Shown here piece by piece: positions 26,138 to 33,260 of a stretch of DNA of 64,000 bases. The stretch's first letter is position 1; each line of letters opens with the position of its first letter. Under the pieces are notes generated by a model. The model saw only the letters and a list, made by a program, of their open reading frames with translations. It made no database searches and was not told the origin of the DNA. The stretch is from Nitrospira sp. GTDB lineage: Bacteria; Nitrospirota; Nitrospiria; Nitrospirales; Nitrospiraceae. Location: assembly GCA_024998685.1 (NCBI GenBank), contig JACOEH010000002.1, positions 1-64,000 of the forward strand, read 5' to 3'. The position numbers and the translations under genes are program-made.

Positions 26138-26446
26138 TCATGATCCAAGAGAATCGATTCCGTAACGTGGAGCAGAAATCCCTTCGCTTCGGCATTGTGG
26201 GCAGCGGCTTGGTCGTGTCAATCGTGTACGGTCACGGAACATAAATTCACAATCCAAGCACATGGATGGTTCAAGGATAAACCGCCGTGAACGGTCACGA
26301 GCCACCGTTTTTACCACATGAACCAAGTGTTCCTCCACCTGTCTTTCTGGAATACCGAGCATCCGAGCCAGTTGATCGGTCGTCATCCTGGTATCGGTCA
26401 AAAGATCGAGGATGCGCTGACGCGGGGTCCGCTCGGGAAGCAACAT
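26138..26446 (-). CDS. HTH domain fused to a zinc ribbon, predicted transcriptional regulator (102 aa)
   Basis: The N-terminal 50 residues form a winged-helix-like unit (RQRILDLLTDTRMTTDQLARML and IPERQVEEHLVHVVK). The C-terminus has two CxxC pairs (MCLDCEF and RCPQCRSEG), giving a four-cysteine zinc ribbon. This matches a small family of predicted regulators. It lies divergent from hpnR with a 227-base spacer, so hpnR or itself could be the target. Nothing in the sequence identifies its signal. Confidence 0.75.
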   Translation of the reverse strand: MLLPERTPRQRILDLLTDTRMTTDQLARMLGIPERQVEEHLVHVVKTVARDRSRRFILEPSMCLDCEFMFRDRTRLTRPSRCPQCRSEGISAPRYGIDSLGS

Positions 26447-26673
26447 GCCCGCATGGTAAAGACCGGGTTGAAGAAAAGCCAGATGATCCGAACAGGATTT
26501 CTACGAATCATCTTAAGTCTTGCGTACTTAAAGGTTGCACCGACGCCTTCATTCTGTCAAAATCCGTTCCTGCATTAATTGCCACATCACGATTAACCCA
26601 CTGGGTCGGCCTGTCTTCGTATCCTGAAACACTAGGTCTTCGTCCAGTGTGCCATAGACGAGGAGGTTGGGTG

Positions 26674-28218
26674 ATGAAGTTCCTCGCGGTTCATCCCGGT
26701 CCGCTCATGTACACCAAAATTTATCTGCGTCTGGAACCGCTCGGTCTCGAGATGGTGGCGCAGGCGTGCCGCCAAGCGGGACACGATGTCCGTTTGATCG
26801 ACTTGCAGGCAGATACGTGGAAAGACTATGAGGCGCTCATCAGGACCTGGAAGCCCGACGCCGTTGCGTTCGGCTGTAATTATCTGGCCAATGTTCCGGA
26901 AATCGTGGATTTGGCGAAGTTGACCAAGCAAGAACTGCCCAACTCGTTCGTCTTTGTCGGAGGGCATAGCGCCTCATTTGTGGCCAAGGATTTTTTGGAG
27001 CACGGCAACGGCGCCATCGATTGCGTGCTGAAGGGCGAAGGGGAAGTCGCTGCTCCCAAACTGTTGATGGCGGTCGAACAGGATCGCAAGGCAATCACGA
27101 AGGTCCCGGGAGTCGTCACACTTGACGGCGAAGGGCCTCCGGCACAATTCATCGAACATCTGGATGATGTCCGTCCCGCACGCGATCTGCTCAGAAATCG
27201 GCACAAATACTTCATCGGTGTGCTCGACCCCTGCGCGTCGGTCGAGTTTGCGCGGGGCTGTCCCTGGGATTGTTCCTTCTGCAGCGCCTGGACCTTTTAT
27301 GGTCGCAGCTATCGCACGGTCAGCACCGAGAAAGCCGTGGAGGAGCTGGAGCGGGTGCAAGAACCTGGCATTTTCTTGGTCGACGACGTGGCGTTCATTC
27401 AGGCCAAACAGGGCTTGGAGATCGGGGAAGCCGTGGCGCGGCGCGGGATCAAGAAACAGTATTATATGGAGACGCGTGGCGATGTCTTGCTGCGCAACAA
27501 GGAAGTCTTCCAATTCTGGAAGACGCTCGGGCTCCAGTATATGTTCTTGGGCGTAGAGGCCATTGATGCGGAAGGCCTCAAGATGCATCGCAAGCGCATC
27601 TCGTTGGGCAGAAACTTCGAGGCGCTCGAATTTGCACGGTCCCTTGGGATCACCGTTGCCATCAATCTCATCGCCGATCCGGATTGGGATCGGGAGCGGT
27701 TCGAGACCGTTCGGCAGTGGTGTTTGGACATTCCGGAAATCGTGAATATCAGCGTCAATACTCCGTACCCCGGCACCGAGAGCTGGGTCACGGAATCCCG
27801 CAAGCTCCACACCCGGGATTACCGTCTATTCGATATTCAGCACGCCGTGATGCCGACCAAAATGCCGCTTCCGGAGTTTTACGCGGAACTGGTTAAAACG
27901 CAGCAGGTCTTGAACAAGAAACATCTGGGCTGGGCTGCGCTCAAGGGCACGGCCAAGATCGCGGCAGGGCATTTGATGCGGGGACAGACCAACTTCATCA
28001 AGATGCTGTGGAAGTTCAACAGCGTCTACAATCCTGAGCTTCAAATGGCGGATCACCGTCGGCCGGTCGTCTACGAAATGACGCCGCCGCCGGAGAAGAA
28101 AGACAAGATCGACGCGAAACAGCTGTACATTTTACCCGCGAAAGGCCGCCAGGGTCGGGCCATCGACGATTCCACCGAGACCTTCGTTGACGAATCCCGT
28201 ATGGGAACCGCGGTCTGA
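26674..28218 (+). CDS. hpnR: Hopanoid C-3 methylase HpnR, B12-binding radical SAM enzyme (514 aa)
   Basis: HpnR adds a methyl group at C-3 of hopanoids using cobalamin and S-adenosylmethionine. The start is diagnostic: MKFLAVHPGPLMYTKIYLRL. A B12-binding domain occupies about residues 1-140 and the radical SAM domain follows, with the [4Fe-4S] cysteines C196, C200 and C203 in ARGCPWDCSFCSAW. I chose ATG 26674, with AGGAGG seven bases upstream, although the frame is open far to the left. The family is known from some methanotrophs, acetic acid bacteria and Nitrospira. No other hpn genes lie in the window. Confidence 0.9.
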   Translation: MKFLAVHPGPLMYTKIYLRLEPLGLEMVAQACRQAGHDVRLIDLQADTWKDYEALIRTWKPDAVAFGCNYLANVPEIVDLAKLTKQELPNSFVFVGGHSASFVAKDFLEHGNGAIDCVLKGEGEVAAPKLLMAVEQDRKAITKVPGVVTLDGEGPPAQFIEHLDDVRPARDLLRNRHKYFIGVLDPCASVEFARGCPWDCSFCSAWTFYGRSYRTVSTEKAVEELERVQEPGIFLVDDVAFIQAKQGLEIGEAVARRGIKKQYYMETRGDVLLRNKEVFQFWKTLGLQYMFLGVEAIDAEGLKMHRKRISLGRNFEALEFARSLGITVAINLIADPDWDRERFETVRQWCLDIPEIVNISVNTPYPGTESWVTESRKLHTRDYRLFDIQHAVMPTKMPLPEFYAELVKTQQVLNKKHLGWAALKGTAKIAAGHLMRGQTNFIKMLWKFNSVYNPELQMADHRRPVVYEMTPPPEKKDKIDAKQLYILPAKGRQGRAIDDSTETFVDESRMGTAV

Positions 28219-29138: not shown

Positions 29139-30947
29139 TTAGGCAAGAACCGCTATGGAAGAGGAGTCCGAAATAATCTGGTCTATTTCCAGCCCATCCA
29201 ACACCTCTTTTTCCAAAAGCGATTCCGCCAGCGCCTTCAAAGTCACCATGTGTTCGGTCAGGACGCGTTTGGTCCGTTCATAGTTTTCTGTGATGAGGCG
29301 TTTGATTTCTCGATCAATCTCCAACGCCATTTCATCACTGACATCTCGCTTGCTCCCAAAGGAGCGACCGAGAAACATCGATTCTTCTTTCTGCCCGAAC
29401 GTCAACGGCCCCAGCTTTTCACTCATGCCCCATTCGCAGACCATTTTACGCGCGAGGTCAGTTGCACGCTCCAAATCGTTGCCCGCGCCGGTTGTGACAT
29501 GTTTGAACACCAGTTCCTCTGCGACTCTACCACCGAGGAGAATCGCCAGCGTGTTGTACAAAAACTCTTGGGAATGATTGTGACGATCCTCGGTCGGCAA
29601 CTGCATGGTCACGCCTAATGCCCGGCCTCTCGGAATAATTGATACTTTGTGGACAGGATCGGTGCCCGGCAGGAGTTTAGCCATCAAGGCGTGGCCTGCC
29701 TCGTGATATGCGGTGACTCGCTTTTCTTCGTCCGTGAGCATCATGCTCTTGCGCTCAACGCCCATCAAGATCTTGTCCTTGGCCATGTCGAAGTCTACGG
29801 CTCCGACTTCGTTCTTGTTCTGACGAGCAGCCCAGAGCGCAGCCTCATTGACTAGGTTTTCCAAGTCCGCGCCTGAAAAACCGGGAGTTCCACGAGCGAT
29901 CTTCTCCAATTCTACGTTATCTGCCACCGGGACTTTTTTAATATGCACCTTAAGGATCTCCGAACGGCCTCGAAGGTCCGGATGATTCACCACCACTTGC
30001 CGGTCGAATCGACCTGGCCTGAGCAAGGCCGGATCGAGCACATCGGGCCGATTGGTCGCGGCAACCAGAATGACCCCCTCCGTCGTCTCAAATCCATCCA
30101 TTTCGACTAGCAACTGGTTGAGCGTTTGCTCACGTTCATCGTTTCCACCGCCGAGCCCCGCTCCCCGCGATCGTCCGACGGCATCGATCTCATCGATGAA
30201 AATAATACAGGGCGCATGCTTTTTCGCTTCCTCGAACATATTCCGCACGCGAGAGGCCCCGACGCCCACGAACATTTCGACAAAATCCGACCCGCTGATG
30301 CTGAAGAAGGGGACGCCCGCCTCGCCCGCAATGGCCTTCGCCAACAAAGTCTTCCCGGTTCCCGGTGGGCCCACGACCAACACCCCCTTGGGAATGCGTC
30401 CGCCGAGTTTTTGAAACTTGCGCGGATCCTTGAGAAACTCAACTGTTTCCTGTACCTCCTCTTTCACTTCATCAATTCCCGCCACATCGGCAAACGTCAC
30501 TTTTTTCCGGTCATCTGTCAGCATGCGGGCCTTGCTCTTCACGAGGGACAGGGCCGCATTTCCCGTCTGCATCCGGCGCATGAAGAATACAAACAGGCCG
30601 AGAAAGAGTACGAGCGGCCCCCAGGTCACGAGAAAACTCATATACCAAGGGCTTTCATCGGGTGGTTTGACCTCGATCTGCACGTGCTTCTCTCGCAGCA
30701 CCTGGACGAGATCAGGATAGTCCGCCGAGTACGTTCGAAGCCGGGAGTTATCTTTCAGCACAGCGTTGACAAGATGTCCCTTGATGGTCACCTTTCCGAC
30801 GTCGTCATTCTCGAGCTTCGCCATGAAATCACTAAAAATGACCTGCTCCTCCAATACAGGGGGCGCCATCGTCCATAGATTCAGAAGTAGTAGTATGAAC
30901 AGGCCTATCACCGTCCAAAACATTATTTTTTTGGTTTTGATATTCAA
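29139..30947 (-). CDS. ftsH: ATP-dependent zinc metalloprotease FtsH (602 aa)
   Basis: FtsH extracts and degrades membrane proteins and some soluble regulators. Two N-terminal membrane helices (about 9-27 and 105-123) flank a periplasmic domain. The AAA domain has Walker A GPPGTGKT near 195, Walker [13 protein letters not shown] and the second region of homology [20 protein letters not shown]. The protease has the zinc motif HEAGH near 417 and a distal aspartate. The start appears to be TTG 30947 after AGAGG. It is the next gene after the lone amoC on the same strand, across 156 bases, so the two may be co-transcribed; FtsH could control turnover of membrane-bound AmoC. The length is slightly below the usual 610-650 residues. 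Confidence 0.95.
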
Positions 30948-31031
30948 GGGTAGCCTCTTACCATGGTCCGTAGCGTCAGATAGCCTATCTACGTGAAGCC
31001 CTTTCCCGGAGTGCAGCCGGCGGTGGAGGCC

Positions 31032-31056
31032 CGGCGCTCTGTACCTCAGAGCGCCG
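31032..31056 (-). terminator. Hairpin between amoC and ftsH
   Basis: CGGCGCTCTG pairs perfectly with CAGAGCGCCG around a five-base loop, 48 bases after the amoC stop. No T-run follows on the minus strand, so it may attenuate rather than end transcription towards ftsH or protect the amoC mRNA end. Confidence 0.5.
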
Positions 31057-31103
31057 AACCTGGTTCCACGCCAACCGCTAATTGGACTGCTCCCCCTTCC
31101 CGC

Positions 31104-31931
31104 TTAGTACCCTGCCTTGGCGTTGGGGTTCACCTGGCTGGGGAACGGATCAAGAATGCTCTTCGGCGCGTTGTTCCAGATCACGTCTGCCAAATTCGAC
31201 ATCCGGCTCACGATCTGCGCCGCCACTCCGCCTGCGGCTCCGAACAACCCGCACCAGCCCAACGTCACAAAGCCCCAGTGCAACGGTGCCGAGAACAGCT
31301 CATCCACAAACCAGAAGGCATGGCCCCACTCATTCAAACCCACGTTCGGCAGAATGAACATTGGTCCCACCACTGCCGCCACTAAGGCAAATGAGGTTGC
31401 CTGGCTGTACAATGGCAACCGCGTCTGCGCATACAGGTAGGTCGCCACGCCGCACGTGATGTACAGCGGGAACGTCCCGTAGAACGCCACGATATGGCTC
31501 GCCGTGAAGCTCGTGTCCCGGATGATCACCTGGTGCCACGCCGCATCCTGCTCCAACGTGTAGCTGCCCGCGTAATACACACCCCACATGTAACAAACAA
31601 GCCAGCCCATCCAATAAAAATACCGCTTCAACTCCAGCTTAGGGGCTAGATTGGCTAAGTTCCGATCCCGCGTCACCCAGATCCAGCCGATTGTCGTGGC
31701 AAAGAACACTGCGTTCGCTAAAATGTTAAACCGCCACAGCCCCATCCACACCGAGTCAAACTCCGGGGTCATCGAATCCAAGCCGTGCGAGTACCCGAAC
31801 GCCCGCTGGTACAGCACCCAGAAAATCCCGATCCCCAGGATAGCTAACCAGCCGATCTTCACCGGCTTCGAGTCATACCACTCCGAGGTGTCATATCCTC
31901 TCTCATTCTTGGTTTGAGTTGAGGATTCCAT
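31104..31931 (-). CDS. amoC: Ammonia monooxygenase subunit C (AmoC), not linked to amoA or amoB (275 aa)
   Basis: AmoC is a membrane subunit of the copper enzyme that oxidises ammonia to hydroxylamine. It has about six membrane helices after a charged N-terminus. The conserved metal-site residues are present: D129 and H133 in EQDAAWH and H146 in [11 protein letters not shown]. Their 4- and 13-residue spacing equals that of D156, H160 and H173 in Methylococcus capsulatus PmoC. The flanking RDTSFTASH and [11 protein letters not shown] are typical of the family. No amoA or amoB is present; the neighbours are a 47-residue membrane protein, ftsH and a divergent marR. Lone amoC copies are known in ammonia oxidisers, where at least one is linked to stress recovery. 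The protein looks functional. Confidence 0.95.
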
Positions 31932-31986
31932 GATTCAGACCTCCTTGTTGAGATTCATGAACACTCTTCTGTCCCCTTCCAATTGT

Positions 31987-32130
31987 TCAACCTGCATAAC
32001 GGTAGGCTGCCGTTAAAGCTCCTACGACTAACCCCATTAACCACCCCCATTTGTATAGCGTTGCATCTTCGGGTTTTTCTTCTAAAGCGCCAGACCGGCG
32101 CGCATTGGTTGATTGCATATGTGTCGCCAT
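31987..32130 (-). CDS. Single-helix membrane protein upstream of amoC (47 aa), unknown function
   Basis: The chosen start, ATG 32130, has an excellent ribosome binding site (GGAGGAGGT at 32135-32143, five bases away). An ATG at 32169 in the same frame has none and lies inside an operator-like palindrome. The product is hydrophilic for about 28 residues (QSTNARRSGALEEKPEDATL) and ends in one membrane helix (YKWGWLMGLVVGALTAAYRY). It is 55 bases before amoC on the same strand and downstream of a strong promoter, so it is the first gene of the amoC transcript. It could be a small accessory subunit or assembly factor for AmoC. I do not recognise a family. Confidence 0.75.
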   Translation of the reverse strand: MATHMQSTNARRSGALEEKPEDATLYKWGWLMGLVVGALTAAYRYAG

Positions 32131-32162
32131 GTACACCTCCTCCGGGGTTAGGTTGTTATATT

Positions 32163-32202
32163 GGGGCATATGCCTGTATAAAAGGGGAATATGCCCTTAT
32201 AT
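32163..32202 (-). promoter_or_regulatory. Tandem operator-like repeats 21 bases apart
   Basis: GGGGCATATGCCTGTATA (32163-32180) and GGGGAATATGCCCTTATA (32184-32201) are direct repeats offset by exactly 21 bases, two helical turns. The first contains a perfect palindrome GGCATATGCC; the second lies in AAGGG-N7-CCCTT (32182-32198). They cover the predicted transcription start of the amoC unit and end beside its -10 box. The divergent MarR protein is the obvious candidate to bind them. Confidence 0.65.
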
Positions 32203-32227
32203 TACTCGCGCACATATTTAGTGTCAA
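32199..32227 (-). promoter_or_regulatory. Promoter for the small gene-amoC unit
   Basis: Read on the minus strand, TTGACA (32222-32227) and TAATAT (32199-32204) are 17 bases apart, close to the sigma-70 consensus. Transcription would start near 32192, inside the operator-like repeats, leaving a leader of about 60 bases before the small gene. Confidence 0.7.
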
Positions 32228-32231
32228 GACA

Positions 32232-32260
32232 TTGGAAAACAGTCGAGAACGTCATATAAT
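32232..32260 (+). promoter_or_regulatory. Promoter for marR
   Basis: TTGGAA (32232-32237) and TATAAT (32255-32260) are 17 bases apart. Its -35 box lies only four bases from the -35 box of the leftward amoC promoter, so the two promoters stand back to back and should influence each other. Confidence 0.7.
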
Positions 32261-32288
32261 GTGGCCGCATGAGCCAATATGATAATGG

Positions 32289-32741
32289 GTGAGCTGCATG
32301 GTTAAACAAATCTCGTCACACGTTCCGTGCTACTGCGCAGTCTTGCGAAAAGCCGTCCGCCGCGTGTCGGTTCTCTATGATGCGAAACTCAAGGATTCCG
32401 GGCTAAAGACGACTCAGTTCTCATTGTTAGGGGAGCTACGTAGACACCGCACAGCACCTCTGACCATGAATGAATTGGCGGAATACCTGGTGATGGACCG
32501 CTCAACGCTTGGGCATAACTTGAGACCACTTCTGCGCAGGCGCTTAGTGGCTCTAAAGCCTGATGCGGTTGATGGACGAACACGGCGTGTGACGATCACC
32601 GCAAGGGGTGAAGCCAAATTTGCTAATGCTGAGAAATTATGGGAGAAGGCCCAGAAAGAGTATGAGGCCGTAATAGGGAAGCCCGCCGCAGTCGCACTGC
32701 GAAGCGCCCTGCAGAAGCTGGCTACATCGGACGCTCTCTAA
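32289..32741 (+). CDS. MarR-family transcriptional regulator divergent from the amoC unit (150 aa)
   Basis: This is a winged-helix dimer of the MarR family: a helical N-terminus (VPCYCAVLRKAVRRVSVLYD), a recognition region LTMNELAEYLVMDRSTLGHNLRPLLRR near residues 58-85, and the wing DGRTRRVTITARGEAKF. MarR proteins usually repress divergent genes and release DNA on binding a ligand or on cysteine oxidation. Three cysteines lie in the first 24 residues (SCMVK, PCYCAV), which could serve as a redox or metal switch. It starts at GTG 32289 or ATG 32298; neither site has a perfect ribosome binding site. The divergent layout makes the amoC unit its likeliest target. Confidence 0.88.
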   Translation: MSCMVKQISSHVPCYCAVLRKAVRRVSVLYDAKLKDSGLKTTQFSLLGELRRHRTAPLTMNELAEYLVMDRSTLGHNLRPLLRRRLVALKPDAVDGRTRRVTITARGEAKFANAEKLWEKAQKEYEAVIGKPAAVALRSALQKLATSDAL

Positions 32742-32804: not shown

Positions 32805-33260
32805 GTGCTGGCGAACATCGTCTACTGCAACATCACGAAGCCTGAGATGCCCGTCGAAGCAATGGTGGCGAGCGGCTATGGATCCGCGTTCAACGCGACA
32901 CTGGGTGCTATGCAAGGACTCGCGAGTATGGCGAGCATGGCAGGCCCTTATGGGGCGATGGGCGGCGCGGCGACCTCCATGGGGTTGAGCGCGATTCAAG
33001 GCATCAGCGATCTGATCAGCTCCTCGTCATCAGCTCCCAAAATGCCGGACGACGTGAATTATGCCTGCGTGGCCGACGTCCAGATCACCGAGCAAGGTGC
33101 CGTGCCGCTTCCCGGTAGAATGAAAACCGGAACAGGGGAGGAAACCGGCGTGTACCAGACGAGGCTGGCGGCCGATGTGCACCAAAAGAAATTGGATGAA
33201 GCCGAAGCGACGCCGTTGCTCCAACAGAAATTGAGCGCTGCCGTGGCAGGAAATTTTTGA
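32805..33260 (+). pseudogene. Probable N-terminally truncated exported protein
   Basis: The frame continues leftward without an ATG until the marR stop at 32739-32741, and the first usable codon is GTG 32805. The readable part has a glycine/alanine/methionine-rich segment (LGAMQGLASMASMAGPYGAM and GGAATSMGLSAIQG) followed by a soluble C-terminus (VNYACVADVQITEQGAVPL). The start of what looks like a lipoprotein or secreted protein is missing, which suggests deletion at the marR junction. I do not recognise the family. A short functional product from GTG 32805 remains possible. Confidence 0.45.

Follow-up and report, generated by a model that had tools for sequence, protein, structure and literature searches.

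Known systems and the present locus

The singleton amoC of Nitrosomonas europaea (amoC3) is tied to the stress regulator sigma-32 according to passages of a review (PMC6311188), and part of another report gives its transcripts as 1.9-fold higher under oxygen limitation, a change that was not significant (PMC6967387). The review also states, in the passages concerned, that all comammox genomes possess at least one non-operonal amoC, and mentions a duplicated amoA in 'Ca. N. nitrosa' and a duplicated haoA in 'Ca. N. nitrificans' (PMC6311188). Recovery of N. europaea after suicide inactivation by acetylene needs newly made AMO, as described in part of PMC7170481. The parallel with the N. europaea singleton drawn in the earlier note on this DNA stands in outline, both being extra amoC genes outside amoCAB with a tie to stress (here a putative one). 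The control described differs, with sigma-32 in N. europaea and, at the present locus, a predicted sigma-70-like promoter (from a scan for this promoter type) accompanied by palindromes of the kind linked to MarR; the present locus also has the small gene and an ftsH of its own.

Photosystem II repair combines spare psbA copies with FtsH turnover of a damage-prone membrane subunit. The present locus likewise brings a spare gene for a membrane subunit that may be damage-prone together with ftsH; it differs in that the two genes are adjacent and that turnover is here only proposed. No description of the amoC-ftsH group was found in the literature on comammox and on FtsH and amo in Nitrospira, in a search that lay mostly outside subscription journals. 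Judging from sequence, an extra amoC under apparently separate control is paired with its own membrane protease gene in some ammonia oxidisers of the genus Nitrospira, and the group bears on the question of how ammonia oxidisers renew an enzyme inactivated in use.

Gene order and conservation

The window is the whole 64,000-nucleotide stretch of Nitrospira sp. DNA that was analysed. From 32130 to 29139 on its minus strand lie a gene for a 47-aa protein, amoC and ftsH, the last beginning 156 bp past amoC, and marR is read the opposite way from 32298 (Table 1). The neighbours described in the earlier note (a 47-residue gene ahead of amoC, a facing marR, and ftsH after) are thus all present, and neither amoA nor amoB stands beside this amoC. 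A TraT-like protein, whose match to the TraT profile of Pfam starts at position 66, is encoded just past marR (32805-33260), and a hopanoid C-3 methylase HpnR lies beyond ftsH (26287-28218).

Table 1. Features of the marR/small gene-amoC-ftsH locus, in window coordinates.
Feature	Coordinates	Strand	Description
marR, MosR-like	32298..32741	+	Pfam MarR_2; CxC pair near N-terminus
marR promoter, TTGGAA-17-TATAAT	32232..32260	+	promoter scan; predicted
small-amoC-ftsH promoter, TTGACA-17-TAATAT	32199..32227	-	promoter scan; predicted
palindrome 1, putative MarR operator	32185..32196	.	over predicted amoC transcript start; conserved
palindrome 2, putative MarR operator	32164..32175	.	21 bp further downstream; conserved
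small gene	31987..32130	-	47 aa; hydrophobic C-terminal stretch, no known family
amoC	31104..31931	-	275 aa; Pfam AmoC, NCBIfam AmoC_BACT; all six ligand residues
stable hairpin, no U-run	31027..31061	-	between amoC and ftsH; folding
ftsH	29139..30947	-	TTG start; amo-linked paralogue, complete ATPase and protease motifs

The earlier note had let its reading depend on whether this order recurs in related genomes, and the order is conserved. It was complete in five genomes, namely the window genome (G000), G015, G064, G001 and G055. In a sixth (G065) it was split between two contigs, one with marR, the small gene and the first part of amoC, the other with the remainder of amoC and ftsH, and G076 possessed marR/amoC-ftsH with no detectable small gene. 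Between the window copy and four relatives, dN/dS was 0.04-0.09 for amoC, 0.08-0.13 for ftsH, 0.18-0.42 for marR and, as a value for a short gene, 0.23-0.62 for the small gene. The full order in five genomes and its split form in one, together with these ratios, indicate that the locus is more than a chance assembly of genes.

The small protein, in which one membrane helix was read by eye, was 59-85% identical in four other genomes, with 19 invariant residues, and 68% identical in a sixth genome. The sequence GGAGGAGG stands just ahead of its ATG. It was rejected as a known AMO subunit, having no match in PDB, PHROG, Pfam or NCBIfam, and the gene was found in no other setting among 76 genomes and the fetched loci.

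All nine amoC-ftsH gaps that were folded contained a strong hairpin (z -3.4 to -6.8; 0 of 60 shuffles as low). A classic terminator was rejected for this gap, as the hairpin lacks a U-run; the structure may stabilise the amoC mRNA or lower ftsH output.

Promoters and palindromes between marR and the small gene

Two sigma-70-like promoters lie back to back in the marR-amoC gap. The scan, which covers sigma-70-like sites and no other promoter type, gave five promoter-like sites here, of which two overlap, compared with 1.0 in shuffles. In an alignment of five genomes, the TATAAT of the marR promoter was invariant and its TTGGAA hexamer varied; on the side of the small gene, TTGAC was invariant, followed by TAATAT or TAGTAT in four genomes and a gap in G055.

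Both GGGCATATGCCC-like palindromes, whose starts are 21 bp apart, were kept in the same five-genome alignment. At up to two mismatches, at least one palindrome was present ahead of marR in all 13 loci inspected, and two, spaced 20-21 bp, in nine of the 13. None was present at two mismatches for the second, tandem marR of G001, nor ahead of amoC in the amoC-ftsH copy of G013 (L106). The exact double site occurred once each in three of 79 genomes (G055, G064 and G065), always in the marR-small gene gap; the window pair departs from this exact pattern. The palindrome count alone was rejected as proof, the window holding two and 2.9 being expected by chance; the argument draws instead on where the palindromes lie, how they are spaced and how well they are conserved. 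Separate switching of this amoC, as put forward earlier with 32163-32202 as the stretch to test for MarR binding, is supported by its own predicted sigma-70-like promoter and by conserved palindromes at the predicted start, inside that interval.

A MosR-like regulator with a conserved cysteine pair

The marR frame is open from a GTG at 32289, and the ATG at 32298 is the likelier start since the orthologues begin at this Met. A MarR winged-helix domain (PF12802) was found above the cut-off, in agreement with the predicted model. In a profile search the best solved chain was MosR (4fx0/4fx4; E 3e-20), which was also the top match of the predicted fold (pLDDT 86; E 8e-9, 34% identity). MosR (Rv1049) of Mycobacterium tuberculosis shares with the window protein the MarR fold, 33-34% identity and a Cys-x-Cys where helix 1 begins; it regulates a secreted oxidoreductase, as parts of the MosR article report (PMC5823404), whereas the divergent target of the window MarR is small-amoC-ftsH. 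The same parts describe a Cys10-Cys12 disulphide within helix 1, the removal of MosR from DNA by oxidant, and a still partial dissociation in a mutant of one cysteine (PMC5823404). Given an offset of 4 between the 4fx0/4fx4 chain numbering and that of the article, which we infer from the Cys10-Thr14 and Cys12-Asn37' pairs mentioned there (PMC5823404, in part), Cys10 and Cys12 of MosR align with the CxC of the window MarR.

The motif PCYC was invariant in all nine aligned MarR orthologues. A script read CxC in 26 of 34 further MarR loci (L223-L256), and at least one of the other eight (L230) also has it, a reading of 'none' possibly reflecting a wrong start or frame. Homology to MosR and the CxC pair make oxidation or electrophiles the likely signal.

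MarR proteins of the window type (E 1e-25 or better) were present in 11 of 175 genomes of the family, and in seven of these 11 the gene stood beside amoC. In G013 its neighbours were sensor kinase and response regulator genes together with a remnant of amoC. Elsewhere it was found next to a Tautomerase_3 gene (G033 and G072, followed in G072 by a zinc alcohol-dehydrogenase-family gene), or next to a gene without Pfam assignment and a linalool-dehydratase-like gene (G135, the same place as L218). At three places marR and palindromes faced a Tautomerase_3 gene, assigned by Pfam in two (L104:10703-12417, L103:8806-9315) and by likeness in the third (L105:9134-9643), and in L104 a zinc alcohol-dehydrogenase-family gene followed. 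The regulator has thus changed targets.

The Tautomerase_3 and zinc alcohol-dehydrogenase-family neighbours, of a kind seen in aromatic or electrophile metabolism, also favour a different signal. The MarR protein may sense an aromatic or other small-molecule ligand, such as an AMO inhibitor or a co-oxidised substrate, and the operon would then replace poisoned AMO. Most MarR proteins are ligand-responsive, according to parts of PMC5823404. As the nearest structure is MosR and the CxC is invariant in the nine aligned orthologues, we regard a ligand as a possible but rather unlikely trigger, and oxidative or electrophilic control is the reading retained below.

The AmoC copy and the amo genes of the genome

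The completeness of AmoC, with D129, H133 and H146 intact as the earlier note had stated, was borne out by model searches and residue comparison. The protein scored 355 bits against Pfam AmoC and passed the curated bacterial model AmoC_BACT (NF041641; 344 bits, cut-off 319). It also possesses a second ligand set, N200, H204 and H218, which the earlier note did not list; the ligand roles of all six residues are presumed from the methane-monooxygenase homologue. All six were invariant in the 69 rows compared, apart from one unreadable residue at H218.

In a quick tree of these 69 fetched rows, a subset of all copies, with SH-aLRT as the only support measure, many AmoC copies clustered by genome whatever their setting and some were identical, which points to homogenisation within genomes. 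The MarR-linked AmoC proteins of G000, G055, G001 and G064 formed a clade of their own (support 98), marked by four diagnostic positions (I31, A96, M115 and T164), and those of G015 and G076 clustered with copies from their own or near genomes. By these comparisons, the predicted window AmoC is close to standard AmoC, with a slight separation from the other copies maintained in four genomes.

The window genome, an assembly of 4.83 Mb in 105 contigs that is 98.8% complete, encoded a second full amoC (C12:43613-44434), 83% identical to the window gene. In addition, contig C30 ended in an amoC start, contig C35 began with a weak 17-residue amoC match (E 0.016), amoB lay at the start of contig C75 (137-1276), and the amoA model had no match in the whole assembly. 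Most probably the assembly broke at repeated amoC/amoA sequence. Absence of amoA and amoB, as described earlier, accordingly holds for the locus and not for the genome, where amoB sits at a contig end and amoCAB is probably broken; a genuine lack of amoA and amoB in the organism was rejected in favour of an assembly gap, given the amoB at the start of C75 and the amoC start ending C30. The locus is lone; its host is probably an ordinary Nitrospira that oxidises ammonia.

The second full amoC (also L096:9614-10435) represents a divergent lone type that recurs in several genomes with intact ligands, 77-86% identical to the window copy. A second amo cluster, devoid of amoB and consisting of genes for a sensor kinase and a response regulator followed by amoC, amoA and ftsH, was found at L111:5797-13041, L108:6385-12080, L132:5220-12576 and L134:3173-8958, and continued in L111 and L132 with ORF217 and another amoC. 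ORF217 (L111:6652-7305 and others), of about 217 aa with a hydrophobic C-terminal stretch, recurs ahead of lone amoC and ahead of amoCAB; it matched no Pfam or NCBIfam family, and no library confirmed the label 'amoD'.

An amo-linked FtsH clade

The window FtsH scored 857 bits against TIGR01241 (cut-off 600) and possesses the Walker A, Walker B and HEAGH (HEXXH) motifs in AAA and M41 domains. FtsH was present in all 79 genomes of the genus searched, the set also used for amoC, amoA/amoB and the exact double site, the small-gene search covering 76. Copies were treed in two rounds (62, then 40 more) as quick trees with SH-aLRT as the only support measure; the final 102 rows comprised 101 of the 118 copies at at least 74% identity and one 52% copy, leaving out 17 of the 118. 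The first tree gave a duplicated, amo-linked clade of 27 rows (21 genomes), which grew to 29 rows from 23 genomes in the second (SH-aLRT 99). In 20 of the 29 rows amoC or amoA lay just upstream of ftsH (in L117, just the final 24 amoC residues at the contig edge); in the other nine the contig stopped on the side where amo genes would lie, eight times within 300 bp of ftsH and, in L371, inside it. No member was seen away from amo genes among the 29 rows. Of the rows added in the second round, 38 fell outside the clade, and their fetched stretches contained neither amoC nor amoA. In six genomes where no amoC was found (G002, G003, G040, G067, G068 and G069), each had one FtsH at at least 74% identity, always of the housekeeping group. 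These trees and neighbourhoods reject chance adjacency, and the association of ftsH with amoC proposed in the earlier note is real.

The amo-type ftsH occurs in two regulatory settings, one with marR and one with a sensor kinase and a response regulator. In the latter these genes precede amoC, in some cases amoA, and ftsH, in places followed by ORF217 and amoC with no amoB between. Compared with the housekeeping FtsH of Nitrospira (G000:C51:41537-43339), which is 83% identical to the window protein and has the same motifs, the amo-linked clade showed 13 near-fixed differences (26 versus 19 rows) and was most variable at its first membrane helix and its C-terminal tail (domain limits by eye). 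In the same four genomes dN/dS was 0.08-0.13 for amo-linked and 0.001-0.012 for housekeeping FtsH, so that the former is constrained, but less so. Some clusters are degraded, e.g. in G043, and weaker constraint together with broken clusters also fits a relaxed need. Two amoC-bearing genera were seen in the family. The amoC-ftsH link was not extended to the second, as no amo-type FtsH adjoined amoC in 18 stretches from 13 of its 20 genomes with a match, three of these stretches ending right after amoC.

The weaker constraint on the amo-linked FtsH also fits a role in dosage only, in which this amoC would be just another of several copies that happens to have a useful regulator, and ftsH would serve membrane quality control at large without favouring AmoC. 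It agrees as well with the multi-copy and often homogenised state of amoC and with the MarR-linked AmoC of four genomes differing at just four diagnostic positions. We nevertheless consider this unlikely: among its 29 rows the clade was seen exclusively in amo neighbourhoods or contig-cut there, under two regulators, and amoC is also paired with an FtsH from outside the clade in two further cases (G052 and G041). The enlarged FtsH sample, having yielded no counter-example, lowered its probability slightly.

Proposed role of the locus

The gene group has the look of a replacement kit for damaged enzyme. In the reading we favour, to which we give an even chance, oxidative or electrophile stress lifts repression of the operon by the MosR-like protein; new AmoC would then be made, and the dedicated FtsH would dispose of subunits that are damaged or orphaned. 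Reduced MarR dimers on the two palindromes at and just past the start site would keep small-amoC-ftsH low, and modification of the CxC pair at helix 1 by oxidants or electrophiles would release the repressor as in MosR. If transcription continues through the hairpin, the operon would then yield fresh AmoC of near-standard sequence and the duplicated, amo-dedicated FtsH, which would remove damaged or orphan AMO membrane subunits, AmoC presumably among them; the 47-aa membrane protein may help in AmoC insertion or hand-over.

AMO is a copper enzyme, AmoC has two presumed ligand sets, and CxC pairs can bind Cu(I), all of which would suit a copper-responsive control in which Cu(I) binding to MarR adjusts the supply of AmoC metal sites to copper. 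This is very improbable, the operon containing no copper gene and MosR using the aligned cysteine pair for a disulphide, as parts of PMC5823404 report.

Several observations count against stress-released renewal of AmoC. MarR control is rare, standing beside amoC in seven genomes compared with 23 for the amo-type FtsH clade; L106 and the tandem marR of G001 lack palindromes, and G076 lacks the small gene. The departure of the window pair from the exact double site, and a palindrome number in the window lower than chance would give, also weigh against it. The weaker constraint on amo-FtsH, the broken clusters and the second genus without amo-type FtsH point the same way, and the hairpin could limit ftsH expression. 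Should AmoC and its own FtsH indeed lie under a redox switch, as is probable for the switch, the locus would name the subunit, the protease and the regulator of such renewal, and the amoC-ftsH group would offer a marker of AMO damage in metatranscriptomes.

More tentatively, and by analogy, the locus may belong to an AMO repair cycle in which AmoC wears out, the dedicated FtsH removes it and the redox repressor switches on its replacement. In photosystem II, D1 and FtsH form such a cycle of wear, removal and replacement.

Lone amoC genes of the bacterial type were also observed on 18 IMG/VR contigs (L290-L307), with no ftsH, marR, amoA or amoB nearby in the stretches examined. A viral origin of the window amoC was rejected on this absence and on the identity of these copies to it, only 61-70%. 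If the repair cycle holds, the lone amoC on these contigs would be the counterpart of phage psbA.
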